A DNA stretch of 64,000 nucleotides from Pararhizobium sp. YC-54. Lineage in GTDB: Bacteria > Pseudomonadota > Alphaproteobacteria > Rhizobiales > Rhizobiaceae. A program made the position numbers and the translations under genes. Below are positions 19,764 to 61,298 of this stretch, in pieces. Below the pieces are notes generated by a model. The model worked only from the letters and a program-made list of their open reading frames with translations. It made no database searches and was not told where the DNA came from. The stretch is from NCBI RefSeq assembly GCF_025847205.1, contig NZ_JAOYTH010000008.1, forward strand, positions 1 through 64,000, written 5' to 3'. How positions within the stretch are numbered: the stretch's first letter is position 1; every line of letters starts with the position of its first letter.

Positions 19764-20447
19764 ATGGGCCTGAGCGCTGTCATGGGGAAAACTCTGGTCA
19801 TCGCGCCGCATCCCGATGACGAGGTGTTGGGTGCCGGAGGTACGATCGCTCGCCTGGCTGCTCAGGGAAATGAGGTTTACATTGCTGTTGTAACCGAGGG
19901 AAAACCACCGGCGTTCACCGCTGAAGCGACCTCCCGGGTGAAGGCGGAAGCACGGGAAGCGCATCGTATTCTCGGCGTCAAGGAGACGTTCTGGCTCGGT
20001 TTTCCTGCTGCGGCCTTGTCCGAAACAGCTCATTCGGCGCTGAACGCGGCGTTATTCGATCTGGTCCAGACGCTTTCTCCCGATACGCTGCTCCTGCCGT
20101 TCATCGGCGACATGCATATGGATCACCAGGTGATCTTCACCTCGTCGCTGGTTTCGGCTCGCCCGCACCAAGAGAATTTTCCGAAGCTGATCTTGGCCTA
20201 TGAAACCTTATCGGAGACCAACTGGAACGCGCCGTATCTGACCCCTAGCTTCGTTCCCAATGTCTTTATCGACATCGCAGATCACGTCGGTGCGAAGATA
20301 GAGGCGATGCACGCCTTCAAATCGCAGTTACGGCCGCCACCGCATGAGCGCTCCCTCGAAGCGCTTCGCGCACTCGCAACACTGCGCGGCGCGACGGTTA
20401 TGAAAACGGCGGCCGAGGCCTTTGTTTTGGTACGCCATATCATTTGA
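19764..20447 (+). CDS. PIG-L/LmbE-family deacetylase
   Basis: 227 residues from 19764; the internal ATG at 19782 (MGKTLVIAPHPDDE) is an equally good start. The zinc motif PHPDDE, the GAGGTIARLAAQG loop and a downstream HMDHQ histidine pair are present, covering the usual metal ligands. Members hydrolyse N-acetyl groups from GlcNAc-type sugars or related substrates. It directly precedes the DegT aminotransferase gene. A sugar N-formyltransferase is encoded at 46625, so removal of an acetyl group before formylation or another acylation is plausible. The substrate is inferred. Confidence 0.9.
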   Translation: MGLSAVMGKTLVIAPHPDDEVLGAGGTIARLAAQGNEVYIAVVTEGKPPAFTAEATSRVKAEAREAHRILGVKETFWLGFPAAALSETAHSALNAALFDLVQTLSPDTLLLPFIGDMHMDHQVIFTSSLVSARPHQENFPKLILAYETLSETNWNAPYLTPSFVPNVFIDIADHVGAKIEAMHAFKSQLRPPPHERSLEALRALATLRGATVMKTAAEAFVLVRHII

Positions 20448-20512
20448 CGCATGTATCCACCGCCGGCCGCGGAAATGGCCGGTCCTGCTATAACGTGAAG
20501 GGGGAGGCAGCC

Positions 20513-21754
20513 ATGGCACGTTGGCCGGTTTACGATGACGAACAAATCGAGGGGGTCGTTTCCGTACTGAAATCCGGTGAGGTCAACGCCTGGACCGGGC
20601 CCTATGTGCGGCAGTTCGAGGAGGCCTATGCGGCCTTTCTCGGCCTGCGGCATGCCGTAGCGGTCGCGAACGGAACCGTTGCACTTGAGCTTGCATTGTT
20701 CGCGCTCGGACTGCGGGATGGAGATGAGGTCATCGTGACGCCGCGCAGCTTTATGGCTTCCGCCGCCTGCGTTCCTTTTTGCAGCGGCGTGCCGATTTTC
20801 GCCGACATCGATCCCGACAGCCAGAATCTCACCGCTGAGACGATCGCCGCCCAGATCACGCCGCGGACGCGAGGCATCATCGTCGTTCATCTCGCCGGCT
20901 GGCCATGCGACATGCAGGGCATCATGGCCCTCGCCCGAGACAACGGGCTTTGGGTGATCGAGGACTGCGCCCAGGCCCACGGCGCCGAGATCGACGGCCG
21001 GCCGGTCGGAAGCTTCGGCGATATAGCGGCCTTTTCGTTCTGCCAGGACAAGATTATCACAACCGGTGGCGAAGGCGGACTGATCGCAATGAACGACCGC
21101 GCGCTTTGGCAGAAAGCGTGGAGCCGCAAGGATCACGGAAAATCATACGACACCGTTTTCAACAAGGTTCATCCGCCCGGCTTCCGTTGGCTGCACGAAT
21201 CCATTGGAACCAACTGGCGCATGACCTCCATTCAAGCTGTGCTCGGCCTGACGCAGCTCAGGCGGTTGAAGGAGTGGCGGGCAACGAGGGCACGCAATGC
21301 GGCGATACTGCAAGACGCTATGGGCGATCTCAAAGCGCTGCGGACACCGGCGCCGCCGGACGGATTTCAACATGCCTACTACCGCTTCTACACATTTGTT
21401 TGCAGAGACCGGCTGAAACCCGGTTATGACCGGGACAGGATTGTTGCAGAAATGAACGGTGCAGGCATGCCGTGCTTTTCAGGAAGCTGTTCGGAGATAT
21501 ATCTGGAAAAGGCCTTCACGGATCTCAATTATGGTCCGGACCAACGGCTGCCTGTGGCGCAAGAACTTGGCGAGACGAGCATGGCGCTGCTGGTGGACCC
21601 TTCACTGGATCGGCAAACCATGCTGGAGACCGCGCGTATACTGCGCGAGATCGTGCTCTCGGCCACCCAGCCCGTGGAAAAATGGAAGGAAGGGCTGCCG
21701 CGCCAGGGGCAAGTGGCGCACACGGATCGGACACCACATTTGGCAAAGACCTAA
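20513..21754 (+). CDS. DegT/DnrJ/EryC1/StrS-family sugar aminotransferase
   Basis: About 413 residues. The ATG at 20513 follows GGGGGAGG; an upstream in-frame start at 20444 overlaps the deacetylase and lacks family sequence. Recognisable blocks are WTGPYVRQFEEAYA, VANGTVALELAL, VIEDCAQAHGA and the PLP segment SFCQDKIITTGGEGG with the internal-aldimine Lys. Members transaminate 3- or 4-keto nucleotide sugars. With the FlaA1-like 4,6-dehydratase at 34504 it could make a UDP-4-amino-4,6-dideoxy sugar (PglE-like role, inference). Confidence 0.92.
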   Translation: MARWPVYDDEQIEGVVSVLKSGEVNAWTGPYVRQFEEAYAAFLGLRHAVAVANGTVALELALFALGLRDGDEVIVTPRSFMASAACVPFCSGVPIFADIDPDSQNLTAETIAAQITPRTRGIIVVHLAGWPCDMQGIMALARDNGLWVIEDCAQAHGAEIDGRPVGSFGDIAAFSFCQDKIITTGGEGGLIAMNDRALWQKAWSRKDHGKSYDTVFNKVHPPGFRWLHESIGTNWRMTSIQAVLGLTQLRRLKEWRATRARNAAILQDAMGDLKALRTPAPPDGFQHAYYRFYTFVCRDRLKPGYDRDRIVAEMNGAGMPCFSGSCSEIYLEKAFTDLNYGPDQRLPVAQELGETSMALLVDPSLDRQTMLETARILREIVLSATQPVEKWKEGLPRQGQVAHTDRTPHLAKT

Positions 21755-27628: not shown

Positions 27629-27734
27629 TACAGCGCCGCGCGCCATTCATGACGCGCAAAGGTCGCTGTAGCTCTTTAAATTTGCTGCATAATTTTTCCT
27701 TAAATCGATTCCGATTTAAGGAACTATGCAGTGG
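27629..27734. repeat. Two-hairpin intergenic palindromic element, copy A
   Basis: First hairpin: CTACAGCG (27629-27636) pairs with CGCTGTAG (27664-27671), with an inner GCGCG/CGCGC stem. Second hairpin: CCTTAAATCG pairs with CGATTTAAGG, flanked by TGCATA/TATGCA. I recognise this composite as a type scattered in Rhizobiaceae intergenic DNA. It separates cysNC from cysQ and could act as an attenuator or mRNA-stability element. Confidence 0.75.
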
Positions 27735-27754
27735 CCGGAAGTCATCAGCAGCCG

Positions 27755-34503: not shown

Positions 34504-36726
34504 TTAGTTGATCCGCGGTTCCGGTGTTGCAGGGTTACGGCCGAGATCGCTGACCAGGGCGGTGAACAGCGCTTCAGGAAGCTCTGAAAGCTGATCGGGC
34601 AAATGATCATCGCCCACGTCGCCGCCGCTTTGAGGGCAGGCATCGCTCAGATGTATCCTGGCGCTCTGCTGCTTCACGTAACCGGGGATCAAACTGCTCA
34701 TCAACGCCAACACCATGGCCTCATCCCCCAGCTCGGCGAAACGCTCCAGGCGCGCAAAGGTAACCATGAGTTTGGAAAGCTCCACAGGATGAGGGATGGC
34801 TCCCAGCACACCTGGTACCGGCGACGCCACACGCATTTCATTGCTGTCGAAGAGCTCCTCAAATCGCTTTTCGCCGGGACGCAGCCCAATGACCTTGATT
34901 GCAATATCTTTGTCGGGTGTAAATCCGGCCAGGCGGATCATCCTTCTGGCTATGTCGATGATTTTTATCGGCTCACCCATATCGAGCACGAATATTTCGC
35001 CCTGGCCGATATCGCCCTCAAGACCATAGGCGGATGCCTGTAGCGTCAGTTCCACCGCTTCGCGGATAGTCATGAAGAACCGCGTCATTTCCAGATCCGT
35101 GACGGTGAGCGGCCCGCCGCAGGCGATCTGCTTCTTGAAGAGCGGAATAAGCGACCCGCTGGAGCCCAGAACATTTCCAAACCGCACCGTCATGAACCGG
35201 GGGCCTGAACCCGTCTTGAACCTGTTCAAGTCGAGAGCCTGGCAATAAAGCTCGGCAAGGCGCTTGGTCCCTCCCATGACACTGGTCGGGTTGACGACTT
35301 TGTCGGTTGAAATCTGAACCATCGCCGTGGCGCCGCACTGTCGCGCCGCGTTGGCAACGTTCATCGTGCCGATAACGTTGGTCAGCGCTCCTTCACAGGG
35401 ATTAAGCTCCACCATGGGGACGTGCTTGAGCGCCGCCGCATGGAAGACGAGTTCCGGCCGATGCAAGGCAAACATGTCGTTGACCCGATTGGCGCGCCGA
35501 ACGTTGCACAGGTGCGCGGAGCGCGGAACGCCGGGGAAGCGTTCGCCCAGCTCCATATCGATAGCATAGAGATTGTACTCACAGTTTTCGATGAGCACGA
35601 GTTCCGCAGGCTCGCACGCCGCAATCTGCAACGTCAATTCGCTGCCGATCGAACCGCCAGCTCCGGTGACAAGCACCCGGCGCCCCTTGACAAGACGCGA
35701 GATCGCTTCCCGGTCAAGGGAGGCCTGGGGCCTCTCTAGCAAATCCGTCAACTCGATGGACTTCAGTTCGAACCGGTTCTCGCGCTTGGCGTTTTTGAGT
35801 TCCGTCATTCGAGACAGCCGGGAAACGGTCATGCCGAGAGCTTCAGCAGCAGCAATCAACTGCTCGGAAGCATCCTCTCCGAACGTGGACGGTGCCTCCG
35901 TAAATACGAGGTGGCGAGGAGAAATGCCGTCACCCTTAAGCTGTGCAACGATGTCTTGAAAATCTGCCATCGCCCCAAGAATGGGTACGTTTCGCAACGT
36001 CATGTTTTGATGATCATTTGTTTTCTCAAGGCAGCCGACCGGCCAATGCGTGCAATTGCGGTCGCGGCTGAGCGCCCGCAGATAAAGGTCGGCAGCGTCG
36101 CCTGCACCAACGAGAAGCGTCGGGATTTGTTTATCGGTATTTTGGCCGCCCTTAACCCAAATCCCACGGCGGGTCAGCGGGAATTCGTCCAGCCGGAAAC
36201 TCAGCCTGGACGCGGAAAGAAAGCTCAGGAGCATAAGGGCTTCCAGCAGCAATGCGCTGCGTGGAATAGCTTCCAGCCGGGTTGCAAAGAACAGGACGCA
36301 GACCAGCATTAGCGTTGTCACGAAAACCGCACGAACAATTGTCCACAAATCCGACACGGAACCATACCGCCAGTTTCGGCTGTATAATCCGGAGAGCGGG
36401 AAAACGACGGCACAGATCACCAGATATTGCGGTCCGGCAATCAGCAGCGCCTTGATGAGCTCCGGCCGCATTTGAACCGTGTCAAACCCGTAGCGGGTGA
36501 CAAACGCGATCCCCAAGGCCAAGCTCGCAGACACGATATCCGTTACAAACAGCGCAGCCGACTGCCGCACCTTTCGCACTTGCGAGTACGCAACCTTTTT
36601 CGTGAGAACCAGAAGCCAATTGGCTGTTGCAAACACGGCTGTGACAACGTCACCTATCGCGATGCCGTATACACGTTTCTTGGTTGAAGAACTGTTGGCG
36701 TGTAAAATAACGTCACTGCGATCCAT
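34504..36726 (-). CDS. Membrane-bound UDP-sugar 4,6-dehydratase (FlaA1/PglF/CapD-like)
   Basis: About 740 residues, start at 36726 with a GGGGGG tract upstream. Four or five membrane helices occupy the N-terminal 150 residues. A first Rossmann-like region follows (LLVGAGDAADLYLRAL), then the catalytic SDR domain with VLVTGAGGSIGSELTLQ, HAAALKHVPMVE and QISTDKVVNPTSVMGGTKR. Replacement of Tyr in the YxxxK motif by Met, with a preceding Thr-Asp-Lys triad, is characteristic of this dehydratase family. It converts UDP-GlcNAc to the 4-keto-6-deoxy sugar, feeding the DegT aminotransferase encoded at 20513. Confidence 0.93.
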   Translation of the reverse strand: MDRSDVILHANSSSTKKRVYGIAIGDVVTAVFATANWLLVLTKKVAYSQVRKVRQSAALFVTDIVSASLALGIAFVTRYGFDTVQMRPELIKALLIAGPQYLVICAVVFPLSGLYSRNWRYGSVSDLWTIVRAVFVTTLMLVCVLFFATRLEAIPRSALLLEALMLLSFLSASRLSFRLDEFPLTRRGIWVKGGQNTDKQIPTLLVGAGDAADLYLRALSRDRNCTHWPVGCLEKTNDHQNMTLRNVPILGAMADFQDIVAQLKGDGISPRHLVFTEAPSTFGEDASEQLIAAAEALGMTVSRLSRMTELKNAKRENRFELKSIELTDLLERPQASLDREAISRLVKGRRVLVTGAGGSIGSELTLQIAACEPAELVLIENCEYNLYAIDMELGERFPGVPRSAHLCNVRRANRVNDMFALHRPELVFHAAALKHVPMVELNPCEGALTNVIGTMNVANAARQCGATAMVQISTDKVVNPTSVMGGTKRLAELYCQALDLNRFKTGSGPRFMTVRFGNVLGSSGSLIPLFKKQIACGGPLTVTDLEMTRFFMTIREAVELTLQASAYGLEGDIGQGEIFVLDMGEPIKIIDIARRMIRLAGFTPDKDIAIKVIGLRPGEKRFEELFDSNEMRVASPVPGVLGAIPHPVELSKLMVTFARLERFAELGDEAMVLALMSSLIPGYVKQQSARIHLSDACPQSGGDVGDDHLPDQLSELPEALFTALVSDLGRNPATPEPRIN

Positions 36727-37423
36727 TATACCCCCCTGCAAACCCTCGCACGGAATAACATCGCCGAACCTGGCGGTTCGGACGTTCAAATTAATCTATA
36801 AAAAATGTATACTACCCTCCTGGGGCATTCTCTAAGCAAAACGCATTCGCATCGGCGCAACATAAAGTTGCGCAGAGGAAACTCGCTCTCTGTAAGAATT
36901 TTCTTTCGTTAGAACATTCGCATAAAATAAATTATCTGTAAAGCATATTTTACTTCGAGCCATTCTATTCCATTAATATGACAATCTATACCTTTTCCAT
37001 AGTGGCACTCTAAAACATATACTTAGCACCTTCGCCTTCAGTGTTAAATCGTTTGAAATTTTCAGTTTCAAGGCCGAAAGCTGTCAATAATAGCAATATC
37101 TTGCTCGGCATCTGGCTGCATGCGAATGCGCTCCACGTTTCTGCCGAAGCGACGGCCGGCGGCGCCGCCGCGCGGTGCGAAGGCCTGCTCGATACCGCAG
37201 TGGCGGCGGCAGGGGTTTCGAAGCCTTTGACCTTCGGAAGGCCACAACAAGGCGCGCCGTCGTAACGGCTTTTTGATGCACGCTGACGGGATCGACTTTT
37301 GGAGCAGTGCCCTGCATGACATTATGGCCTGGGATTTACACGCCCCCTGAAGACCCCTGAAGGGCCGCAGCCGGCGATGTCGTTGGCAGCTCGCAATGCC
37401 AGAGGCCGACCATGGCGCGCATC
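36727..37423. other. Intergenic region, possible gene remnants
   Basis: About 700 bp. The part next to the dehydratase gene (36780-37030) is AT-rich and should hold its promoter. From 37040 to 37420 the GC content rises and several frames are open on the minus strand, but none has a start with a ribosome site or a recognisable domain. It looks like degraded coding DNA. A CCCCTGAAG direct repeat occurs near 37344-37362. Confidence 0.4.
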
Positions 37424-40458: not shown

Positions 40459-41067
40459 TCAGCCGATATCTTTTCTCTTCGCTGCGGAAAGCCGGCTTTC
40501 GCTCAATCTTTCTCCAAATATCATCACAAAAACGGTCATGACCAGGATTTGAAGGTCAATCCAGAAGGTTCTGTTCCGGATATACCATAAATCAAGGTCG
40601 ATCTTGTCGTTATCTGTGAGAACAGCATTGCCGCTGATCTGCGCCCACCCCGTCAATCCCGGCTTGACCGAACAGCGCAGGGCGCCACGTTCGCCAAGGG
40701 CGCGGATCGTTTCAGGGAGAATGGGACGAGGACCAATCAAGCTCATATCGCCGACAAGGATGTTCCAGAACTCAGGAAGTTCGTCCAGGCGTGATCGCCG
40801 CAGCAGCCGGCCGAATGCAGTCGTGCGCTCCTCGTCGCTCAGCAGCTTGCCGTTGCTGTCCCTCTTATCCGACATTGACCGGAACTTGATCATTCTGAAG
40901 GGGCGTTCGCCTTCCCCTGCCCTCGTTTGAACGAAAATTGCCGGCCGGCCGAGAAGAACAATGACGGTCGTTGCGACGAGCAGCATGATGGGCAACATCA
41001 ACAACCCGGCGACAAGTGCGAATATGATGTCAAGAATACGGTTCATAATATTTGCCCCGGCAAACAT
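40459..41067 (-). CDS. Small polyprenyl-phosphate sugar-1-phosphate transferase (PglC/WcaJ-core type)
   Basis: 202 residues from 41067 (AAGG six bases upstream); MNRILDIIFA at 41046 is an alternative start. One re-entrant N-terminal hydrophobic segment is followed by MIKFRSM, the catalytic DELPE in RRSRLDELPEFWNIL, DMSLIGPRP and GLTGWAQI. This minimal monotopic form equals PglC in size. It should start each repeat unit by placing a sugar-1-phosphate on undecaprenyl phosphate. PglC enzymes use UDP-diNAc-bacillosamine. A related amino sugar is plausible here, because dehydratase, aminotransferase and PglD-like acyltransferase genes are all in the window. Confidence 0.93.
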   Translation of the reverse strand: MFAGANIMNRILDIIFALVAGLLMLPIMLLVATTVIVLLGRPAIFVQTRAGEGERPFRMIKFRSMSDKRDSNGKLLSDEERTTAFGRLLRRSRLDELPEFWNILVGDMSLIGPRPILPETIRALGERGALRCSVKPGLTGWAQISGNAVLTDNDKIDLDLWYIRNRTFWIDLQILVMTVFVMIFGERLSESRLSAAKRKDIG

Positions 41068-46624: not shown

Positions 46625-47536
46625 ATGCGTGTTGTTCTTGTTGGCTCTGTTGAAAGCTCGAAAGTCGCATTCGACGCACTCGTGAACGCCGGAAAACCAC
46701 CCGTTCTCGTCGTGACGCTCCCAAAAGAGGCAGCCGATCGCCATTCTGATTTCGCCGATATCGGTTCCCGCGCGGCTGAGATGGGAATCCCGGTATACTA
46801 TACGACGCTGATAAATTCCCCTGAAGCCCTCAAGGCCATCGAAAGCGCAGCACCCGACGTCACGCTCGTCATTGGCTGGTCGCAGATTTGCAAAGCTTCC
46901 TTTCGCGCTATAGCGCGCATCGGCAGCATCGGTTTTCACCCAGCCGCATTGCCGCTATTGCGCGGACGAGGCGTCATTCCCTGGACCATCCTGCTTGGCG
47001 AAAAGACGGCAGGTTCCACCTTGTTCTGGCTCGACGAGGGTACAGATTCCGGGCCCATCCTGCTACAGGAGAACTTCCACGTCGCCGCCGATGAGACGGC
47101 ACGCAGCCTCTATCTCAAACATATGCACAACATCGAAGAGATGGTCCCAGAAGCCATGCGGCTGCTTGAGAGAGGCGATGCCCCGAGGATCGGGCAGGAC
47201 CACAGCCAGGCGTCCTATTGCGCGAAACGCACGCCGGAAGATGGCCTGATCGATTGGCGCCAGCCAGCTTGGCAGATACTCACACTCATTCGGGCGGTCG
47301 GCGATCCGTATCCCGGCGCGTACACGCACTGCAACGGGTTCAAACTTCACATTGACGTTGCTGCGCCTGCTGCGGAAACACCCCGCTATATCGGCGTTAC
47401 CGGACAGGTGCAGGCACACACGCCAAGCGGTTTTGTGATCATGTGCGGCGATGGACGGTGTATCGAGGCCCGTCATTGGCGATCACAGAACGGCAAGCCG
47501 CCGCCTGTGCATAGCAAGCTGGTTTCCCTTCCATAG
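46625..47536 (+). CDS. Formyltransferase-family enzyme, probable sugar N-formyltransferase
   Basis: 303 residues. N10-formyl-THF fold with VIGWSQICKASF, the catalytic block GFHPAALPLLRGRGVIPWTIL (Asn of tRNA enzymes replaced, His retained) and the Asp in LDEGTDSGPILLQ. Methionyl-tRNA formyltransferase is unlikely because of context and the short divergent C-terminus. Relatives formylate 3- or 4-amino nucleotide sugars. With DegT, FlaA1-like and PIG-L genes in the same locus, an N-formylamino sugar in the EPS is a strong inference. Confidence 0.87.
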   Translation: MRVVLVGSVESSKVAFDALVNAGKPPVLVVTLPKEAADRHSDFADIGSRAAEMGIPVYYTTLINSPEALKAIESAAPDVTLVIGWSQICKASFRAIARIGSIGFHPAALPLLRGRGVIPWTILLGEKTAGSTLFWLDEGTDSGPILLQENFHVAADETARSLYLKHMHNIEEMVPEAMRLLERGDAPRIGQDHSQASYCAKRTPEDGLIDWRQPAWQILTLIRAVGDPYPGAYTHCNGFKLHIDVAAPAAETPRYIGVTGQVQAHTPSGFVIMCGDGRCIEARHWRSQNGKPPPVHSKLVSLP

Positions 47537-49278: not shown

Positions 49279-50232
49279 TCAGCTTTGATGTGACTGAGGA
49301 TGCTGGCTATTGGGAGCGTCGAAATCTGCGCTGGTTGCTCTCAGGAGATTTTTGGCGTCAGGTGTCAGATCACGGCTGCAGTATGCCTCAATGCGCGCGA
49401 TCTCGTCGTCGTTCAGATATTCGCGAAAGCCGCCGACGAGCCCTTTTCGCATGCGCATACTTTGGAGGTCCGTACGGTCGTATTCGTGTGCAGGAATACC
49501 CTCGGCGACCTCCATTTCCTGCATCCTCTCAAACTGGCCCGCGTCTACGGCAGCTTGAAGAACCCTTGGCTTGATCTCGCACCCCAGAAAATGGAGGACC
49601 CCCTCGATCTCTTTCACAGGGGCCGCCGAAAGGTTCTCGTAGCTCACGATGTGGTGGCGTCTGCCTGAGAGACCGGCGGCCCAGCCATTAAGATAGGAGA
49701 TCATTTTGGGCATCCCGTAATCGGGATCGTCGATGAAATCCGACAACGAGCCAGAGAAACGCCCCTTGTGTCGTGTCGCATGGAAATAGCCTGATACAAG
49801 CACATCCCTCGGATCGCGCACCATGACAATAATCGGCAGTTTTGGCGGGAGCTGTGATCTGGCTTCGTGGCTGACGACCACCATAGGTACCTTGCCGGCC
49901 GCACCCTGGGATATAAAGGCGGGAATTCCACGCACGGGATCCAGATCGAAATTCGGGACAAGCGCAAACATGTTATGCAAGTTCGTTTTGTCGTTCTTTC
50001 CAAAGGCCGCCGAAAAATAAAACGACAATATATAGCGTAGCCAAGTCCGTCCGGATTTCGGAAAAGACACCAGACAGGCGTCTGCCTTTTCTGCGTATCT
50101 GGAGAGAGTAGCGTCCCTGCGCAACCTGCGCAAAAATCTCCAGACGTGTCGCAACGTTTCGTATGGCTCGGTGAACCCCTTCCAAATTCCGTGTAGTTTC
50201 TTCCCACTGGAATCGTATGAAACGGGCATCAT
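49279..50232 (-). CDS. Sulfotransferase
   Basis: 317 residues, start ATG at 50232 (a second ATG follows directly) with AAGGG upstream. The PAPS 5'-loop is CLVSFPKSGRTWLRYILSF (about residues 53-71) and the 3'-phosphate motif IVMVRDPRDVLVSGYF (about residues 135-150). It has good similarity to cytosolic-type sulfotransferases. It is unrelated in detail to the enzyme at 25877, so two different positions of the glycan, or two different acceptors, are probably sulfated. It lies in a minus-strand run with a GT4 gene, 306 bp downstream of it. Confidence 0.9.
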   Translation of the reverse strand: MMPVSYDSSGKKLHGIWKGFTEPYETLRHVWRFLRRLRRDATLSRYAEKADACLVSFPKSGRTWLRYILSFYFSAAFGKNDKTNLHNMFALVPNFDLDPVRGIPAFISQGAAGKVPMVVVSHEARSQLPPKLPIIVMVRDPRDVLVSGYFHATRHKGRFSGSLSDFIDDPDYGMPKMISYLNGWAAGLSGRRHHIVSYENLSAAPVKEIEGVLHFLGCEIKPRVLQAAVDAGQFERMQEMEVAEGIPAHEYDRTDLQSMRMRKGLVGGFREYLNDDEIARIEAYCSRDLTPDAKNLLRATSADFDAPNSQHPQSHQS

Positions 50233-52261: not shown

Positions 52262-53215
52262 GTGACGTCGTCAATCGCACCGAATTCTACCTTTTCGCAA
52301 CTGGAAGTTCATGCAGGAGCTACGCCGCTCGGACTCGAATTGCCGACTGTAGTCCGCTTTTATCAACAGATGATGCTGATCCGCCTCCTCGAGGAGCGCT
52401 TGCTCGATCTCTTTTCCCAGGGCCTTCTGTTCGGCACGACACACACTTCAATCGGCCAGGAGGCAAATGCGGTAGGCGTGGTGAACGCTCTCGACAGGGA
52501 TCGGGACATTGTTTGGAGCAATCATCGCTGCCATGGTCATTTCATTGCCTATTCGGGTGAAGTTGAAGGCCTGATAGCCGAGATCATGGGGCGCATCACC
52601 GGCGTGTGCGGCGGGCGCGGCGGCAGTCAGCACCTGTGCTTCCGCAACTTCCACTCAAATGGCATTCAGGGGGGCACAACACCCGTGGCCGTTGGCACCG
52701 CATTGGCGCGCAAGGAAGAGGGCGCTGTGGCCGTCGCCTTCCTGGGCGACGGGACGATGGGCGAGGGAGCCGTATACGAGAGCTTGAACCTCGCGTCCGT
52801 TTTCGGTGCGCCCGTTGTTTTTGTGATCGAGGACAACGAAATCGCCCAAACAACCCCCAAAGCTCTGACCGTCTCCGGTTCGATCGTCGCCCGGGCCGAA
52901 CCGTTCGGCATCCGCACATTTGCCTATGACGGCAACGATCCCGTCGAGATATTCGAACTTGCCCGGGAGGCCGTAGGCTATGCCCGCGCCGAATCCCGCC
53001 CCTGCTGGCTGTATTTGCGAACCGAACGAATAGGCCCGCACAGCAAGGGAGATGACACGCGACCAGCCCTGCGTCTTGAGCAGGCGCGGGCTCGGGACCC
53101 CATCCCTCCTATGCGGCGGCGCGTGGCGAACTTCGAGGCGATCGACGCCTTTTGCAGATCCGTTGTGGACCGCGCCGTGGAATCTGCGGCCGCGGCCCCT
53201 CTGGCGCGAGGCTGA
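52262..53215 (+). CDS. 2-oxoacid dehydrogenase E1 component, alpha subunit (TPP-dependent)
   Basis: About 317 residues from the GTG at 52262, which has GGGGGAG at ideal spacing; a TTG at 52226 also opens the frame. Typical E1-alpha blocks are THTSIGQEANAVG, CGGRGGSQHL, GGTTPVAVGTALA and the TPP motif GDGTMGEGAVYESLNLA. It resembles acetoin/pyruvate dehydrogenase alpha chains in size. With the beta chain it should decarboxylate a 2-oxoacid and reductively acylate a lipoyl group. The partner lipoyl protein two genes on is not a normal E2. Substrate unknown: pyruvate or another small oxoacid. Confidence 0.92.
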   Translation: MTSSIAPNSTFSQLEVHAGATPLGLELPTVVRFYQQMMLIRLLEERLLDLFSQGLLFGTTHTSIGQEANAVGVVNALDRDRDIVWSNHRCHGHFIAYSGEVEGLIAEIMGRITGVCGGRGGSQHLCFRNFHSNGIQGGTTPVAVGTALARKEEGAVAVAFLGDGTMGEGAVYESLNLASVFGAPVVFVIEDNEIAQTTPKALTVSGSIVARAEPFGIRTFAYDGNDPVEIFELAREAVGYARAESRPCWLYLRTERIGPHSKGDDTRPALRLEQARARDPIPPMRRRVANFEAIDAFCRSVVDRAVESAAAAPLARG

Positions 53216-53217
53216 CC

Positions 53218-54150
53218 ATGCGCGTCGTCGAATCGATCAATCGCGCGCTCCACGATCTCATGGAAACGAATTCCCGCCTGGTCATCCTGGGCGAGGATAT
53301 TCTCGATCCCTATGGTGGGGCGTTCAAGGTCACCAAAGGTCTTTCGTCCGCCTATCAGGACCGGGTCTGGACCACGCCGATTAGCGAGGGTGGCATCGTC
53401 GGAATGGCCGCGGGCCTCGCCCTCAAGGGCAGGCCCGTGATTGTCGAACTTATGTTCGGAGACTTCATTGCCCTGGCTGCAGACCAGATCATCAACCACG
53501 CAGCCAAGTTCCGCTGGATGTACAACGATCAGGTTGAGGTTCCCGTCATCATCCGTGCTCCCATGGGTGGGCGGCGCGGCTACGGACCGACGCACTCGCA
53601 AAGTCTGGAGAAGCATTTTTGCGGCGTGCCCGGCCTTACCGTGCTTGCCACGCATGAATATGCGGATCCGGGTGCGCTGCTGCACCGGGCTTTCGCCGCC
53701 CGGTCCCCTCATCTGATCATCGAGAACAAGGTCATGTATGCCAGGCCCGTGCTGGGTACTGCAGCACTTCCCCGCCCGCCGGATGCCGATATTGTCATCG
53801 TGACCTATGGCGGTTGTGTCGAGCACGCGGTTGCGGCTGCAGCCAAACTCGCTGCAGAGGAGGAAATCGCGACCACCGTGGTGGCCGTCGAACAGCTATC
53901 CCCCTTCCCTTATGAGGATGTCCAACGCCAGGTCGGCAATTGCACCCGCGTGGTCGCCGTGGAGGAAGGATCTCCCGGCTGGGGCTTTGGGTCGGAGTGT
54001 GCGCGCGCGCTGATCGGCCGGGTCAAGTACTTCAGCGCATTGGCCGGACCGGACCACCCCATCCCATCGAGCCGTGAATGGGAGGACGATGTGCTGCCGG
54101 GCGTCAGCGCCATCCAGGCGGCTTGCCTCGATCTTTTCAGGAAGGGTTAA
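53218..54150 (+). CDS. 2-oxoacid dehydrogenase E1 component, beta subunit
   Basis: 310 residues starting at 53218, two bases after the alpha stop. The transketolase-like domain shows LVILGEDILDPYGGAFKVTKGL, TPISEGGIVGMAAGLAL, VELMFGDFIALAADQI and FRWMYNDQVEVPVIIRAPMGG. The C-terminal domain contains DIVIVTYGGCVEHA and PWG-like GWGFGSECA. Together with the alpha subunit it forms a heterotetramer with TPP at the interface. The peripheral-subunit-binding domain in the next gene product is the expected docking site for it. Confidence 0.93.
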   Translation: MRVVESINRALHDLMETNSRLVILGEDILDPYGGAFKVTKGLSSAYQDRVWTTPISEGGIVGMAAGLALKGRPVIVELMFGDFIALAADQIINHAAKFRWMYNDQVEVPVIIRAPMGGRRGYGPTHSQSLEKHFCGVPGLTVLATHEYADPGALLHRAFAARSPHLIIENKVMYARPVLGTAALPRPPDADIVIVTYGGCVEHAVAAAAKLAAEEEIATTVVAVEQLSPFPYEDVQRQVGNCTRVVAVEEGSPGWGFGSECARALIGRVKYFSALAGPDHPIPSSREWEDDVLPGVSAIQAACLDLFRKG

Positions 54151-54156
54151 GCTTTC

Positions 54157-55260
54157 ATGAGCGTGCTTGTTGAAGCCCCACGGGTTAATGCCAACGAGGA
54201 CCACCTTCAACTCATCGACATTCGGGCCGTGCAGGGCGAGCGGGTAGAGCAAGGGGTTATTCTTTTTGTCCTTGAGACCACGAAGGCTGCCGTTGAGGTT
54301 CATGCGCCGGAGGCCGGGGTTGTCGGCCGGCTCGATGTCAAGGTAGGCGACTTTATCCCTGTCGGCGCAGTGTTGTGCGAACTCGTCAACGAAAATGCCG
54401 ACGCGGGGTCCGGAAGACCTGTCGCCGACAATGGCCCGGGCAAGGAGATCACGATAACGGCCAAAGCCCGCAAGATCGCGGCCGAGCTCGGGATCGACCT
54501 TGCGGATGTCAGTCCCATCGACGGCCGCATCGGCGAAGCCGAGGTGCGCGCGGCGGCCAGCCGCCGAACCGGCACCATGGAGGTCGGACCTGGGACGTTC
54601 CGGTCTGCCTTACCTTCCGGGTCTGCGCGGCGCGCGGTCATCATCGGCGGCGGCGGGCACGCCGCCTGCCTGATCGATGCGCTCGAAGGATCGGGATACG
54701 AGATCCTCGGTTGCACCGATCAAGCGCTGCCGGCCGGCCACCACGTCTGCGGCGGTGTTTCGGTGATCGGCACGGAAGAATGCCTGGAGCGTTTGATGGC
54801 CGAGGGAACGCCTTACGCCTTCATCGGCATAGGGGGGGCCCAGTCAAGCGAGCCAAGGCGGGCGATGTTTGAACGCGCCCTGGCCATCGGCTTCGTCCTG
54901 CCGCCGGTGATCCACCCGTCCGCGACCGTTTCCAAGGCGGCGACAATCGGACATGGTTGCCACGTTCTAGCCGGTGCGACGATCGGGCCGCGCTGTGCGA
55001 TCGGCAACAACGTCATCGTCAATCAGGGCAGTATCGTGTGCCATGACAGTATCGTGCAGGATCACGCGCACCTGACACCCGGCGCCATCCTGGCCGGTGG
55101 GGTGAGCGTCGGGCCGATGACAGTCGTGGGGATGGGGGCAACGGTGCTGCTCGGCGTCCGGATCGGCGCCGACTGCCTGATCCACAACGGCGCGCATATC
55201 AGCGCCAACGTCGGGGACAACATCATCATCGACGCTCAGGGCCGCCGGCATCTTCGCTAG
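54157..55260 (+). CDS. Fusion: lipoyl domain, E1/E3-binding domain, PglD/NeuD-type sugar acyltransferase
   Basis: 367 residues, six bases after E1-beta. Residues 1-80 form a lipoyl domain with the modifiable Lys43 in VLETTKAAVEVHAPEAG. Residues about 98-134 match the peripheral-subunit-binding domain (TAKARKIAAELGIDLADV ... GRIGEAEVRAA). From residue 159 there is a PglD/NeuD-like enzyme: a Rossmann nucleotide-sugar loop (RRAVIIGGGGHAACLIDAL), then left-handed beta-helix hexapeptides (residues about 253-355). The catalytic-type His296-Asp297 in SIVCHDS is retained. The normal E2 catalytic core (HxxxDG) is absent. I infer transfer of an acyl group from the lipoyl arm to a UDP-amino sugar; use of acetyl-CoA by the helix domain is the conservative alternative. 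Confidence 0.9.
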   Translation: MSVLVEAPRVNANEDHLQLIDIRAVQGERVEQGVILFVLETTKAAVEVHAPEAGVVGRLDVKVGDFIPVGAVLCELVNENADAGSGRPVADNGPGKEITITAKARKIAAELGIDLADVSPIDGRIGEAEVRAAASRRTGTMEVGPGTFRSALPSGSARRAVIIGGGGHAACLIDALEGSGYEILGCTDQALPAGHHVCGGVSVIGTEECLERLMAEGTPYAFIGIGGAQSSEPRRAMFERALAIGFVLPPVIHPSATVSKAATIGHGCHVLAGATIGPRCAIGNNVIVNQGSIVCHDSIVQDHAHLTPGAILAGGVSVGPMTVVGMGATVLLGVRIGADCLIHNGAHISANVGDNIIIDAQGRRHLR

Positions 55261-55455: not shown

Positions 55456-57018
55456 ATGGCTAATCCGCGCAGCGCGAGAGGCGGCAATCCGTTGGTGCTT
55501 TTGGCAACCGACGCCATGGCTTGGGCCTTTGTTATTCTTGTTGCAGTTCTTTTCGTTGCCAATACGCGGCACGGCATTGGCGTGTTGCCTGACACGACGC
55601 GCTACATGCAGATTGTCAGCACGCCCTATGATGCGCCTCTCTATCCCTGGATTCTGAGTGCGGGGCATCTGCTTGGGCTTGAACTGGAGCATGTCGCGCT
55701 CATCGCGGCGTTTGTTTTATATATCGCAAATACGCTTCTCGTCCTTCACCTGTTCCGATATGCGCTACCGGCCCAGCCGCTGTTCGTCGCCATCGGAACC
55801 CTTCTGATCATCATCTCTCCGACGTACCTCTGGGCAAACACGATAGCGATGTCAGAGTCGCTCTTCATGACACTCATGCTACTTTCGGTAGCCTTCTTTC
55901 TATCGTACCTGGACAGGCAGGATCGACGGTTACTTACTGCGTCCTCCTTGTCGGTTGGCATGGCCATGCTCGCGCGTTTTGTCGCGCCGGCGGTCGGCGC
56001 ATCGTTTGCTGCGATCATCCTTTTCTACAACCGCCAGCGAACAATGGCCGAGCGCGTCATCGACGTAGCCATGCTTTTCTTGCTGAGTGCCGGGATATTC
56101 GTAATCTGGGCGGTAGGCAGCAAGCTGCTTGTTGGCCGCGCCGTTGGGCGCCAGTTGTCGTTCTACGGCAATGCGGACAGTGATCGCTGGCTTAGCGGAT
56201 TGTCCGCGCTCGCGAGCTTCCTGCTTCCCTCCCAGGTCCCGCAGTTTATTCGCTTCACATTGCTCGCGACGGTGGTGAGCATTGCAGTCTTCGTTATTTT
56301 GAGCGCGGCATGGCGCAACTGGGGTCGGACGCAGCCGTTGCGGCAGGACGTTCTCATTCTCGTGTTTGGCTTCTTCAATTTTTTCTATCTGGCTTTCATC
56401 ATTCTTTCCGTCCTGATCGAAGCAAATCTGCAACTCAACAACCGTTATTCACTGCCCTTTTACGTTGGCCTCGTTTTCGTACTGGTCATTGCGGCGGCGA
56501 ACTTCAGCAGTCGTTCGAACCGTGCTCCGATCCATCGCGGCTTGGTGGTTGCAGGCTTGGCAATCCTCCTGGCAGTCAACGTTCTTCGGAGCACCGTACA
56601 AACGGCAGAGGCCTACGACGAAGGCATCGGCTTTCAAAGTCTTACCTGGAAGACGTCGCCGACGGTTACGGCTGTCCGTGCTTTACCCGGCGACGCAATC
56701 GTCTTTACCAACGGCTCCGACGTGTTGAATTTCCTGACGGGGCGCAGGACAGCTTGGATACCGGCTCACAGCCAGCGGCGCACCGGACTGGAAAGCGAGG
56801 AGAATCCGTTCGAGGACCAGGTTCGGCGGCTTCGGCATGCTTTGGTGGAACAGAACGCCTATGTTGTATTCTTCGATGCGATTGACTGGCGTTTTTATTA
56901 CGCAAGCGAGGACGAGCTTGTGAAGCTGGCGGATCTCAAGCTGGTCCAGTCAGAAGCCGACGGCCGCATCTATCAGAGTGATACTACAACCGACAAAAAA
57001 TTGCAGTCTTCAAACTGA
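55456..57018 (+). CDS. GT-C-fold membrane glycosyltransferase (polyprenyl-phosphate-sugar dependent)
   Basis: 520 residues, start ATG 55456 with GGGG five bases upstream. About eleven membrane helices. An early periplasmic loop has the acidic pair typical of GT-C enzymes ([21 protein letters not shown], Asp near residue 43), then a C-terminal soluble domain with [19 protein letters not shown]. Members such as ArnT use polyprenyl-phosphate sugars as donors on the periplasmic side. The next gene encodes a phosphoribosyl-polyprenyl-phosphate-synthase-like enzyme, so a pentose donor is a natural guess. The acceptor is unknown: EPS, lipid A or protein. Confidence 0.8.
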
Positions 57019-57050
57019 ACGTGTGGTTCCAGACGAAGGGGGGACGGTCC

Positions 57051-58055
57051 ATGCCTACGAACCAGAAGAGCATTCCAGTCGTTGGCACGCAAGCGGCTCC
57101 GCAGGGGCGAATATCGGACTATCTTTCACTTGCCAGGTTCGATCATGTGACAAAACATGTCTTCGTTCTGCCTGGCCTTGTTCTCGCCTACGCATTGCAG
57201 TCGCCGGCCCTTCCGGCGCTGTATTTCAATGTGCCGGTGGGCCTGTTGAGCGCCATCTGCATCGCGTCGGCGAACTATGTCATCAACGAATGGCTCGATC
57301 GGGAACACGATGCGGCCCATCCCACCAAGTCGACCCGCCGTGCCGTCGTCGTGGCGCTGCGGCCAAGTATTGTCTATGGCGAATACTTCCTGTTCGCGAT
57401 CACCGGACTTGTCCTCGGTTATCTTATCGGGACACTTTTCTTTCTCACCTCGATAGCATTCCTCGCATCCGGGATCCTCTACAACGTTCGTCCGATGCGC
57501 GTGAAGGACAAGCCCTACCTCGACGTTCTGATGGAGTGCCTGAACAATCCCATCCGGTTTCTATTGGGATGGGCGATCGTCGATGGCCTGACATTGCCGC
57601 CTGTCAGCGTGCTCGTGGCCTACTGGATGGCAGGCGCCTTCCTTATGGCGGCAAAGCGGCTGGGCGAGTATCGGGACATTTCCGCGACGGCCGGCGTGGC
57701 GGTACTCAGCAAATACCGGCGCTCGTTCCATTATTATTCCGAGGAGAGCCTGATGGTCTCCTGCTTTGTATACGCGATGATGACTGCTTTCCTGAGCGGG
57801 GTATTCCTTGTCAAATACCGGGTGGAATACATTCTCGTGTTTCCATTCATAAGCGGTCTGTTCGCGGTCTACATCTGGCTTGCCGCCCGTCCCGGCTCTG
57901 TCGTCCAGCGCCCGGAACGGCTTTTTCACTCGCGCCGTCTCGACGTCATGCTGGCAGCGTGCATCGTCGTCTTTATTGTCGCGACCTTTGTCGATATGCC
58001 TTTCCTTGATTTCGTGGCGACACCGTCCTTCATATCTATTCCTGTGCTGCGATGA
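57051..58055 (+). CDS. UbiA-family enzyme, decaprenyl-phosphate phosphoribosyltransferase-like
   Basis: About 334 residues. The ATG at 57051 follows GGGGGGACGG; a GTG at 57021 is weaker. About eight or nine membrane helices. The cytoplasmic motif NEWLDREHDAAHPTKSTRR (residues 79-97) matches NDxxDxxxDxxHPTK of mycobacterial Rv3806c and rhizobial NoeC, with Glu for the first Asp. A second loop reads YNVRPMRVKDKPYLDVLME. Such enzymes transfer 5-phosphoribose from PRPP to a polyprenyl phosphate, unlike quinone-forming UbiA. Its stop overlaps the HAD phosphatase start (ATGA), supporting consecutive steps. Confidence 0.88.
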   Translation: MPTNQKSIPVVGTQAAPQGRISDYLSLARFDHVTKHVFVLPGLVLAYALQSPALPALYFNVPVGLLSAICIASANYVINEWLDREHDAAHPTKSTRRAVVVALRPSIVYGEYFLFAITGLVLGYLIGTLFFLTSIAFLASGILYNVRPMRVKDKPYLDVLMECLNNPIRFLLGWAIVDGLTLPPVSVLVAYWMAGAFLMAAKRLGEYRDISATAGVAVLSKYRRSFHYYSEESLMVSCFVYAMMTAFLSGVFLVKYRVEYILVFPFISGLFAVYIWLAARPGSVVQRPERLFHSRRLDVMLAACIVVFIVATFVDMPFLDFVATPSFISIPVLR

Positions 58056-58792
58056 CTGCGCTGGACCTCCCGCATGGACCCGTGCACTGGGACGCTATTC
58101 GTCTGGTCGTCTTTGACCTGGACGGAACGCTCTACGATCAAAGGCGCCTTCGTCTGCGGGTGCTGCTGCGCCTCGTTGGCGACGCTGTATCTTCGCTCAG
58201 CCTCGAAACAATCCGGATCTTGCGTGAGTTTCGTCGTTGTCGCGAAGAACTCGGCGAATCTCTGGCGTGCGACTTTGTCACTCTCCAGTACCAGTCTGTC
58301 GCGAACCGCACAGGCCACCCACCGGAATACGTGCGGTCGATCGTCGAGGAGTGGATGGAACGGCGGCCGCTCGACGTCCTGCGGAACTGCCGCTACCCCG
58401 GCATTGCGCAACTGTTCGCCGGGCTCAGCGCCAAAGGCAAGACGATTGCGGTTCTCTCCGACTATCCGGCACGGGAAAAGCTTCGTGTTCTGGGACTGAG
58501 CGCCGACCTCGTCGTTTATGCCGGCGACCCGGATGTCGGCTTTCTAAAACCCCATCCGGCGGGTCTGCAAAACGTCCTGAGCAAAGCCAAAATTCCCGCA
58601 CAAGACGCAATCATGATCGGAGACAGGGTCGATCGTGACTGGAAGGTCGCACAGCGGCATGGCATGCGAGCACTGATCAAGAGCCGCAAACCACTCGCAG
58701 ACATCGACACGTTCCGCAGCTTTGACGACGAGGTCTTCAGCGCAGTGAGCGAAAAGGACGTTCGGTCAGGACACAACTTTCAAGAGCCATAA
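58052..58792 (+). CDS. HAD-superfamily hydrolase, probable phosphoribosyl-polyprenyl phosphatase
   Basis: 246 residues. HAD motifs are complete: motif I VVFDLDGTLYD (residues about 18-28), motif II VLSDYPAREK, motif III Lys in GFLKPHP and motif IV MIGDRVDRD. A helical cap lies between I and II. It is predicted to be soluble and cytoplasmic. Coupled to the UbiA-like gene, it probably removes the 5-phosphate from polyprenyl-phosphoryl-5-phosphoribose, the step assigned to Rv3807c in mycobacteria. The specific substrate is inferred from coupling. Its 3' end overlaps the convergent epimerase gene by 27 bp. Confidence 0.87.
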   Translation: MTALDLPHGPVHWDAIRLVVFDLDGTLYDQRRLRLRVLLRLVGDAVSSLSLETIRILREFRRCREELGESLACDFVTLQYQSVANRTGHPPEYVRSIVEEWMERRPLDVLRNCRYPGIAQLFAGLSAKGKTIAVLSDYPAREKLRVLGLSADLVVYAGDPDVGFLKPHPAGLQNVLSKAKIPAQDAIMIGDRVDRDWKVAQRHGMRALIKSRKPLADIDTFRSFDDEVFSAVSEKDVRSGHNFQEP

Positions 58793-59794
58793 AGCCCCCT
58801 GCCTTATTGGCGACCGATGTGGGCTTCCACCCGCGCTGAGCCTTGTCGATGCCAGGCTCTCGCAATACCAGTCATAGCTCTCCCTCAGCATGTCCTGGTT
58901 GGAATATGTCGGACGCCAACCCAATTGAAGCAGCGGCTCGACGTCAAAATAGCACTCCTTATGGTAGGTCAAATAGTGCCATGGCACGAGCGGCGAGACC
59001 CTCATCCAATGCAGTGCTCGCAACGTGTTTATGGTTAAAGCCGTTGGCAGGCTTTTGACTTTGGACCTGCTTCCCGCATAGGTGATCAGCGCCTCCAGGT
59101 CGCCTCGCAAAGTGCCGAAACGATCTGTCCCAACATTGTAGGTACCGCTTTTGCCTGCATTCAGCGCAAGCATGTAGAAGTCCATCAGATCGTGCGCGTG
59201 AATGAACTGGAATTTGATATCTCCACTGCCGATCACGTAGACCGAGCGATTTTCCCGTATCCATTCGAACAGGATTTGGAAGATGCCGAGCCGCCCGCCG
59301 CCAAGGGTGGCTCTGGGGCGGATGGTGATCAGGGTGATGCCATTCGCCTTGCAGATCTCTTCCGCCAGCTGTTCGCCCGCGCGCTTCGACTTGCCATAGG
59401 GTTCGACGGGCCGAAGCGGCGTTTGCTGTGTAATCGGTCCGGACGGGGGAATACCGTAAGCGGCTGTCGAACTGACGTGGATCAGCGATTTCACGCCGGC
59501 CTTCGCCGCTTCCTCAGTGACGATACGCGTCCCTTCGACATTGACCGCCCAGTAGTCACGGCCAGCGTCGGTTTGCGCTACCAGCGCAGCATTGTGATGG
59601 ACGACATCGACGCCCCGCATTGCGGCGCGTACCCCGTCACGGTCAAGGACGGAGCACTTGACGAATTCTATGTCTCTGGGCCGAGACGCATCTTCCCATA
59701 TGTCGAGTACGCGAACTTCATCACCCCGGTCGCGAAGCCGCCGCGCAGCGAGGTTGCCGATAAAGCCTGATCCCCCAGTAATAAGGTGTCGCAT
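58766..59794 (-). CDS. NAD-dependent epimerase/dehydratase (extended SDR)
   Basis: About 342 residues. The ATG at 59794 follows GGGAGGAAAG; the frame extends to 59851 but overlaps the GMC gene. Rossmann motif MRHLITGGSGFIGN, HHNAALV, catalytic Ser/Thr in VSSTAAYG and YGKSK (YxxxK). It belongs to the 3-beta-HSD/sterol-dehydrogenase-like branch of extended SDRs by look. Downstream of the GMC oxidoreductase gene by 31 bp in one operon. A redox pair GMC plus SDR could invert a sugar hydroxyl on a polyprenyl carrier, replacing DprE1/DprE2 (inference). Confidence 0.85.
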   Translation of the reverse strand: MRHLITGGSGFIGNLAARRLRDRGDEVRVLDIWEDASRPRDIEFVKCSVLDRDGVRAAMRGVDVVHHNAALVAQTDAGRDYWAVNVEGTRIVTEEAAKAGVKSLIHVSSTAAYGIPPSGPITQQTPLRPVEPYGKSKRAGEQLAEEICKANGITLITIRPRATLGGGRLGIFQILFEWIRENRSVYVIGSGDIKFQFIHAHDLMDFYMLALNAGKSGTYNVGTDRFGTLRGDLEALITYAGSRSKVKSLPTALTINTLRALHWMRVSPLVPWHYLTYHKECYFDVEPLLQLGWRPTYSNQDMLRESYDWYCESLASTRLSAGGSPHRSPIRQGALWLLKVVS

Positions 59795-59825
59795 ACTTTC
59801 CTCCCACTCCCCATGAAATTGCCGG

Positions 59826-61298
59826 TCAAATCGCGCCGGAATTGATGGCATGCATCACATTGCGGTGCGCAACGGCCATAACCGTACCCTGCGGATTGAC
59901 AACGGTCGGACCGCAAAGCAGCGATGCGTCGGCGATATACAGCCCATCCATTCCGTGTACGCGCCCAAACGAATCCGTCGCGCATTTCTGCTTGTCCTCT
60001 CCCATCGGGCAGGATGAGAACAGGTGCAGCGCCGTCGCATTCGCCTGCTTCGGCGAAATCGTTTCCGGCAGTTTGGCGATGTCGGCCACCGAACGGAGCA
60101 CCGGATAGCCAGGGATGCTCGGATAGACCGCCTCGGCTCCCGCGGCAAAGAGCACCTCGGCCAACCGGGCAAGCCCGTCGGCTAGCTCCTTCAAATCCAG
60201 CCGATGAAGTTCAACCCGCACGAGAGGGTCCCGAAAGCCGGGCAAACTCCTGACCTTGCCCACCCCTCCGGTACTTTGCACATAGTATATCGCCATGCGG
60301 CGCCAGTCGCGATCGACCGCCTCCATCATCGCGGGATGAGCTGCCATCGCAAGAGCGAGTGCTGGACGCTTGCTCATCGAACAGCCCATGCTGAAACGAG
60401 GATCGAATTCCTTGATCTGGTGAACGGGTTCGAGTTCGCCGGGTATGTTTATTTCGTCCCGAAACAACGCGACGGCCTTGAGCATCGGATGAAACCGCAG
60501 ACTGTTGCCGACGTTCGTCTTGACGCCGGAGCGGCGCAGAAGCCACGGGGTCTGCACCGCGCCTGCGGCGACAAACACGGTCTTCGCTGTCAGCTCAAGT
60601 CGCCGCCGGTTCGTGCCATCCCAGGAAAGCGCACTGACCGTCCAGCTTCCGGAAACCCGCGAAATCCTCGTGGCGCGGGTACGGGCCATTACCACCCCGC
60701 CCGCCCTCATGAAACGAGGCACAAACGTCTCCGACATGGATTGTTTGCGCCCAGGGGAACCCGTCGCAATGTCGGTTGCATAGGCATATAAACGGGGAAC
60801 CTCAAGACATGCCCAACCGAGGTTGCGAGCACCTTCTGCGAGGCGAGTCGACAGGTGGGGTGCTGGACCGGGCAGGTACTGCACTTGGGCAACCTCCTCG
60901 CACGCCGCAAAGTGCGGATCGAGTTCGGATGGCGCCAGCGCATCGACCCGGTAGTCGCGCCGCCAGTTTTCCAGAACGTCCGAAGAAATGCGATGATAAA
61001 GGCCGCGGTTGATCTCGCTGCCACCCCCGACGCAGCATCCTTCAACATAGGCAATTTTTGCGGAACCGAACCCTATGTTGACGCCTGCATTCCGGTACTT
61101 CTGCAATATCTCTTCACGGGAAAAATGCGGCGCGGAATCTAAGGAGAGATGGTCACCTTCTTCCAGCATGACAACGAACTTGCCTGCCTCGGCGCACATG
61201 GATGCCGTCACCGCTCCGCCAGGGCCGGACCCGATCACTAAAACGTCCGCGATGATTTTATCGTGACTGAGCCCGTTTCCCGGTGGGAAGCTGGTCAT
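59826..61298 (-). CDS. GMC-family FAD-dependent oxidoreductase
   Basis: About 490 residues from the ATG at 61298 (AAGGA upstream). FAD dinucleotide fold VLVIGSGPGGAVTASMCAEAG near the N-terminus, the second flavin loop GCCVGGGSEINRGLYHR, FVAAGAVQTPWLLRRSG and the C-terminal active-site pair His in LHLFSSCPMG and Asn in VVNPQGTVMAVAHRN. No signal peptide, so it is cytoplasmic or held by a partner. Members oxidise alcohols including sugars and sterols. Its start overlaps the small upstream gene by 41 bp. The proposed substrate, a polyprenyl-linked sugar, is inferred from neighbours. Confidence 0.9.
   Translation of the reverse strand: MTSFPPGNGLSHDKIIADVLVIGSGPGGAVTASMCAEAGKFVVMLEEGDHLSLDSAPHFSREEILQKYRNAGVNIGFGSAKIAYVEGCCVGGGSEINRGLYHRISSDVLENWRRDYRVDALAPSELDPHFAACEEVAQVQYLPGPAPHLSTRLAEGARNLGWACLEVPRLYAYATDIATGSPGRKQSMSETFVPRFMRAGGVVMARTRATRISRVSGSWTVSALSWDGTNRRRLELTAKTVFVAAGAVQTPWLLRRSGVKTNVGNSLRFHPMLKAVALFRDEINIPGELEPVHQIKEFDPRFSMGCSMSKRPALALAMAAHPAMMEAVDRDWRRMAIYYVQSTGGVGKVRSLPGFRDPLVRVELHRLDLKELADGLARLAEVLFAAGAEAVYPSIPGYPVLRSVADIAKLPETISPKQANATALHLFSSCPMGEDKQKCATDSFGRVHGMDGLYIADASLLCGPTVVNPQGTVMAVAHRNVMHAINSGAI

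Follow-up and report, generated by a model that had tools for sequence, protein, structure and literature searches.

The pyruvate dehydrogenase (PDH) and branched-chain 2-oxoacid dehydrogenase (BCKDH) complexes and the PerB, PglD and PglB-type N-acetyltransferases are the closest described relatives of a three-gene row found in a stretch of 64,000 nucleotides of Pararhizobium sp. YC-54 (assembly GCF_025847205.1, contig NZ_JAOYTH010000008.1, positions 1 to 64,000), hereafter the window. The row encodes E1-alpha and E1-beta subunits and a fusion protein in which lipoyl and peripheral-subunit-binding-like domains precede a PglD-type sugar acyltransferase domain. The E1 alpha/beta pair, the lipoyl domain and the binding-like domain are common to the PDH and BCKDH complexes, as is an E3-like gene in one related locus. 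Unlike in these complexes, the sugar acyltransferase of the fusion replaces the E2 core, and the E1 subunits of the window are only 27-32% identical to those of two further E1 pairs that the genome encodes, which by eye are of PDH and BCKDH type. With the PerB, PglD and PglB-type enzymes the C-terminal domain of the fusion shares its fold and the catalytic histidine; unlike them, the fusion has lipoyl and binding-like domains ahead of it and adjoining E1 genes in 17/17 loci, and the fusions counted lack the C-terminal GxPA loop, with the exception of a GVPG in fusion L046. The fold matches of the PglD domain include LpxD and LpxA, left-handed beta-helix acyltransferases that take the acyl group from an acyl carrier protein, have a lipid A substrate and carry no lipoyl domain.

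Two other described systems combine some of these elements. QncN/QncL/QncM, like SclQ1-4 by homology, direct a glycolyl unit by means of E1-like, lipoyl and carrier-protein components (PMC6335953), and the likeness lies in E1-like and lipoyl proteins sending an acyl group elsewhere than to free CoA (coenzyme A); that set differs in having an acyl carrier protein and in feeding peptide products, and a PglD domain is unmentioned in the available part of this source. AviB1/AviB2 and Pau11/Pau12 are PDH-like E1 pairs acting in sugar chemistry, where they are proposed to add a two-carbon branch (PMC4425429); the E1 pair is shared with the window, and a lipoyl partner is unmentioned for them in the portion of the text available. 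No description of an E1-lipoyl-sugar acyltransferase was found in the literature searched, which left most subscription papers outside, and in the available part of PMC4875605 the term 'lipoylate' is used for fatty-acid genes.

The analysis of the window and of its relatives indicates that the three genes probably encode a dedicated complex of the 2-oxoacid dehydrogenase type that acylates sugars straight from the lipoyl arm, without CoA. An earlier note on this DNA had described E1-alpha, E1-beta and fusion genes separated by gaps of 2 and 6 bp, and the coordinates proved to be exactly so. The E1-alpha gene starts with GTG, the first start given by the open reading frame finder being a TTG at 52226. 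A comparison of four stretches between the window and the related locus L004 gave ratios of nonsynonymous to synonymous substitution rates (dN/dS) of 0.05-0.11 (NG86) and 0.05-0.16 (YN00). The open frames and the low dN/dS values rule out a frameshift or annotation artefact for this row.

The E2 lipoyl profiles scored up to 46.3 bits on the fusion, with carrier-protein models at 31.3 bits or less, and the chain of a PDH E2 (7b9k_A) aligned to the fusion over profile positions 4-143. The predicted structure has three folded parts joined by linkers (residues 82-95 and 140-154) with a per-residue confidence (pLDDT) below 50, and helices at 102-111 and 127-139 in the binding-like domain. Pfam found PglD_N at residues 161-229 plus Hexapep, so that the PglD_N and hexapeptide beta-helix fold is present; its models gave no match to the catalytic domain of an E2 anywhere in the protein. 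The NCBIfam model NeuD_NnaD scored 164.2 against a cut-off of 160.8, and the closest solved structures to the PglD domain are named nucleotide-amino-sugar N-acetyltransferases. The claim of a PglD/NeuD-type enzyme in place of the CoA-acyltransferase core was thus borne out, and the alignment placed the lipoyl Lys43 and the His296-Asp297 pair where they had been proposed. The VIA-align rows span mostly model residues 157-367 and barely test the binding-like domain.

The association with E1 genes is constant. Seventeen distinct fusion loci, picked by the fusion alone and not by E1, were compared with the E1 proteins of the window: the window itself, L004, L005, L006 (the L069 contig), L007 (L042), L008 (L068), G1098, G1162, G1094, G604, G1517, G1525, G1051, G1421, G1324, G1396 and G1241. 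An E1-beta gene lies directly upstream of the fusion in all 17, which agrees with the linkage that the earlier note had asked databases to reveal, and E1-alpha is present in 16, the exception (G1324) being a cut contig of 3,042 bases. In L061 (G1396) and L062 (G1241) E1 alpha and beta form a single frame. No E1 gene was found in the flanks (up to about 1.5 kb) of 31 stand-alone NeuD/PglD loci. When the contig sizes of 116 fusions were compared with those of 118 E1-beta proteins (each set taken from 120 listed), 25 coincided, whereas the 2,000 jittered controls averaged 0.8 and never exceeded 5.

The residues expected to carry out the chemistry are conserved. Lys43, His296 and Asp297 are invariant in 39/39 aligned fusions, which are 31-84% identical to that of the window, and an ExxK-type motif stands at the lipoyl lysine in 122/122 fusions. 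In a second subfamily (P0121-P0225, 105 proteins including the truncated P0193) the lipoyl lysine is kept in 103, the catalytic histidine in all 105, and His-His replaces His-Asp in 103; this set overlaps the first one in at least G1051 and probably in G604. The catalytic histidine matches the position of His141 in PerB. With CoA bound, Pcryo_0637 has a conserved proline near its C-terminus in the cis form, and in its family this proline changes from trans to cis upon CoA binding (PMC8040287, as far as the available part of this source goes). The solved CoA users PerB, PglB and VioB align with one another through this GxPA loop, which is found in 0/122 fusions versus 27/34 stand-alone enzymes, and in 0/105 members of the second subfamily versus 4/8 further relatives of stand-alone length. 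The count of 122 leaves out L046 as well as P0023, P0114 and P0117, which are fragments or split proteins, and P0118-P0120 were counted among the stand-alones; a first-pass count with duplicates and fragments had given 0/127 fused and 25/36 others.

A column comparison of 34 stand-alones, 116 first-set fusions (six genome fusions being left aside) and 102 second-subfamily fusions (without P0193, P0224 and P0225) has revealed that the catalytic histidine is kept in 100% of them. Gly314, kept at 97% in the first set and 83% in the second subfamily, is the presumed oxyanion glycine, as it lies 18 residues past the histidine, like Gly160 past His142 in Pcryo_0637. The G-V-P-A positions are lost in the fusions, and residue 344, an alanine in 85% of the stand-alones, is asparagine in 116/116 first-set and serine in 102/102 second-subfamily fusions. 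The losses of GxPA, though not independent, show that the change is maintained.

According to the proposed mechanism, E1 (alpha/beta, with thiamine diphosphate) would decarboxylate a 2-oxoacid or cleave a ketose phosphate and would reductively acylate the lipoyl group on Lys43. The lipoyl arm, borne on flexible linkers, would then swing into the PglD domain, where His296 could act as the base and the acyl group would pass to a nucleotide sugar, the acceptor most likely being the 4-amino group made by a DegT aminotransferase; an E3 whose gene lies elsewhere in the genome would reoxidise the dihydrolipoyl arm. In this scheme, therefore, the PglD domain would replace the E2 core, and the sugar would replace CoA. 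The domain architecture, the conserved residues, the linkage to E1 and the loss of the GxPA loop can be read directly in the sequences; from them we infer the lipoylation of Lys43, the direct CoA-free transfer, the identity of the acyl group and the nature of the acceptor (nitrogen or oxygen). The idea of the earlier note, that an acyl group made by E1 is handed from the lipoyl arm to a sugar, is the best-supported reading of these data.

The E1 proteins belong to a family with shared stretches (EDxxDPYGGAFK, MFGDF, MGGxRGYGxTHSQ and HSKxDD, some differing by one residue). The thiamine-site segment and the PHSKGDD loop of E1-alpha are retained in most relatives, the ISE and THSQ segments of E1-beta are invariant in 8 aligned sequences, and the thiamine-site, histidine and loop segments of the pair presumably have catalytic roles. 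A search of 279 genomes with the E1-beta profile at E <= 1e-90 found the window and G780. Next to its E1 gene, on the downstream side, G780 encodes a protein bearing a true E2 core (2-oxoacid_dh, 90 bits), and the two frames share 11 bases; the place taken by the PglD fusion is thus one that an E2 can occupy. The E2 motif DHRxxDG/NG was absent from frames of at least 200 amino acids across 16 fusion loci. As for the E3, which the earlier note had placed elsewhere in the genome, no match to the E3-like protein of L061 was found within the window and two E3-like genes, 31-32% identical to that protein, are located elsewhere in the genome; in L061 the E3-like gene lies inside the row.

A separate observation concerns L079:7639-12186, where an E1 of the dedicated family and a canonical E2 are found beside an Antibiotic_NAT-type acyltransferase and an AMP-ligase-like gene (by eye), possibly another acylation route.

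The protein search with the fusion gave 226 matches at E <= 0.001, and lipoyl and hexapeptide domains occur together in 114 of the best 120 of them (by-eye count, Pfam). A distant relative in G1051, used as query, gave 117 matches that define the second subfamily, whose source names include Desulfomarina, Acidobacteriaceae and Verrucomicrobiota. A one-off fusion is ruled out by its recurrence with E1-beta in the 17 distinct loci. In whole genomes, of which only the best few first-look candidates each were scored, the fusion is rare. The full fusion was found in 1/297 genomes of the family (that of the window). Among 397 genomes of the order 19 matched, with full-length proteins only in the window and G604; among 385 of the class 7 matched, with the fusion in the window and G1051; and among 349 of the phylum 11 matched, with the fusion in the window and four others. 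It was also found in 3/99 genomes of the family of G604, in 6/146 genomes of one genus, taken as Mesorhizobium, and, in the order of G1051 (27 genomes, 2 matching), as a full-length protein in G1051 alone. The plasmid search gave two partial matches only (53% and 54% of the query). Automatic names of these proteins are NeuD family O-acetyltransferase and biotin/lipoyl-containing protein. P0117 (232 amino acids) and P0226 (238 amino acids) have a lipoyl domain without a PglD domain and are possibly split forms or fragments.

The genes around the row in several loci would fit an amino-sugar acceptor. The order PglC-like, PIG-L, DegT aminotransferase, E1-alpha, E1-beta, fusion is found in 6/6 Mesorhizobium-group loci (L006-L008 and L065-L067), of which three come from named records and three from genomes of a single genus, and in L006, L007 and L065 the DegT gene overlaps the first-start E1-alpha frame by 4 bases. 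The DegT protein of the window is 60-62% identical to the product of the gene just before E1-alpha in these six loci, and the PIG-L and aminotransferase genes of the window are about 31-32 kb from the E1-fusion row. The L006 copy of the PglC-like gene is a Pfam Bac_transf. In L062 an aminotransferase lies on one side of the fusion row and flagellin-like genes (by eye) on the other, and L036 contains flagellar and CDP-sugar genes, including genes of CDP-glucose dehydratase type (by eye), and a C-methyltransferase (Pfam). The row L061:9207-17416 comprises NeuB, NeuC, the E3-like flavoprotein, a polysaccharide deacetylase, the fused E1 and a lipoyl-NeuD protein, with a NeuA-like gene by eye; its product could be an N-acyl sialic acid of an unusual kind. 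The re-acylation of an amine would fit the deacetylase and aminotransferase genes beside the machine.

Several observations weigh against direct transfer from the lipoyl arm to sugars. The E3_binding match at residues 104-125 scored 21.1 bits, under the Pfam cut-off of 23.7, so that of the two E2 modules claimed earlier the lipoyl domain was found and the binding domain at 98-134 was recovered only below threshold. For the lipoyl part, Foldseek ranked a biotin carrier slightly over a lipoyl domain; because it matches both, the fold alone cannot decide between them, and it is the ETTKA motif and the E2 lipoyl profile scores that rule out a biotin carrier as the identity of the N-terminal domain. 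P0159, in the second subfamily, has no lipoyl lysine, the other member without a counted lysine being the truncated P0193. The GVPG of L046 is kept at the C-terminal loop, and GxPA is missing in 7/34 stand-alones and in 4/8 of the further stand-alone-length relatives; its absence alone is therefore no proof of CoA-independence. The link from E1-beta to the fusion is weak, since of the two loci that the 279 genomes yielded one (G780) has an ordinary E2 as partner; this E1 family is thus not confined to sugar acylation. In a tree built from 34 fusions and as many stand-alones, the fusions fell in three places, with a single origin not rejected (p-AU, the approximately unbiased test, 0.463); hence the fusion counts are not independent events and repeated fusion is not claimed. 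Finally, none of eight sugar/E3 queries matched in the stretches of 7 of the 15 non-window loci (L004, L005, L035, L036, L060, L063 and L064), despite the CDP-sugar-type genes seen by eye in L036.

Three other explanations have been considered. If the PglD domain still used acyl-CoA, the E1 and the lipoyl arm would only supply or regulate it, for example by local synthesis of acyl-CoA; this is unlikely, as the fusion has no E2 core for CoA loading, the E2 motif appears in none of the 16 loci in frames of at least 200 amino acids, GxPA is absent in all fusions counted (122/122 and 105/105) and the alanine at residue 344 has been replaced in both sets. A little more room has to be left, still as a minor alternative, for the same machine with another acceptor, namely a hydroxyl (O-acylation of sialic-acid type), a glycan or a sugar linked to a lipid, in place of the 4-amine of a nucleotide sugar. 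The NeuD-family O-acetyltransferase names of the sources, NeuB and NeuC in the L061 cluster, the stretch of L036 searched, which gave no aminotransferase match, and the His-His pair of the second subfamily speak for it, whereas the named N-acetyltransferases among the nearest solved structures and the DegT aminotransferases that adjoin the genes in seven loci favour an amine. Very improbable is that the E1 pair attaches a branch to a keto sugar through a new carbon-carbon bond, as has been suggested for AviB1/AviB2 and Pau11/Pau12, with the lipoyl fusion as a scaffold: E1-like pairs do act in two-carbon branched sugars (PMC4425429, in its available part) and L036 has the CDP-glucose dehydratase-type and C-methyltransferase genes, but the lipoyl lysine would then be needless and yet is conserved, a true E2 stands beside one E1 of the family, and an amine-making enzyme is supplied in the six Mesorhizobium-group loci.

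If acylation straight from the lipoyl arm is correct, the chemistry of oxo-acid dehydrogenases would gain an outlet beyond CoA and carrier proteins, namely sugars, which would explain specific acyl groups on bacterial surface amino sugars by a route that bypasses CoA pools and could offer a lipoyl-based tool for glycan engineering, and the automatic names would be hiding a fusion machine. More tentatively, both large subfamilies, which by their source names span more than one phylum, may form a distinct kind of acylation machine in which sugars receive acyl groups directly from the lipoyl arm and surface glycans thereby gain non-acetyl groups (for example glycolyl, propionyl or branched ones), and the NeuB/NeuC cluster could be a bacterial route to an N-acyl sialic acid variant such as the glycolyl form.

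Table 1. Features of the window related to the E1-fusion row (residue numbers are those of the fusion protein).
Feature	Position	Strand	Basis or remark
PIG-L-type de-N-acetylase	19764..20447	+	Pfam PIG-L; 61-63% identity in L006-L008, L065-L067
DegT-type sugar aminotransferase, candidate amine maker	20444..21754	+	Pfam DegT_DnrJ_EryC1, 310 bits
PglF-like nucleotide-sugar 4,6-dehydratase (named by eye)	34504..36789	-	Pfam Polysacc_synt_2, 355 bits
PglC-like sugar transferase	40459..41067	-	49-51% identity to gene in six Mesorhizobium-group loci
E1-alpha, dedicated 2-oxoacid dehydrogenase E1 family	52262..53215	+	Pfam E1_dh, 166 bits
E1-beta, partner of E1-alpha	53218..54150	+	Pfam Transket_pyr and Transketolase_C; ATG start
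Lipoyl/E3-binding-like/PglD fusion, 367 amino acids	54157..55260	+	ATG start
Lipoyl domain, residues 1-78, Lys43 in ETTKA	54157..54390	+	Pfam Biotin_lipoyl, 21-76
Peripheral-subunit-binding-like domain, residues 98-139, low-confidence linkers on both sides	54448..54573	+	Sub-threshold E3_binding
PglD/PerB-type sugar acyltransferase domain, residues 157-367, putative catalytic His296	54625..55257	+	PglD_N, Hexapep
Fusion C-terminus without GxPA, site of GxPA in CoA-using relatives	55222..55257	+	PMC8040287 (available part)

Other genes of the window include a formyltransferase-like gene (46625-47536, by eye), with homologues of about 81% near the cluster in L004 and L005. Sulfate-activation genes of the CysD, CysNC and CysQ-like types (25877-30540, by eye) and two sulfotransferases, one at 25877 (by eye) and one at 49279-50232 (Pfam), suggest that a polysaccharide is sulfated. 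Downstream of the fusion, a row at 55456-61355 comprises a GT-C-type glycosyltransferase, a UbiA prenyltransferase, an HAD phosphatase, an SDR epimerase and a GMC oxidoreductase, which we take to resemble a polyprenyl-phosphate-pentose route; this row is kept in L004 at 86-95%.

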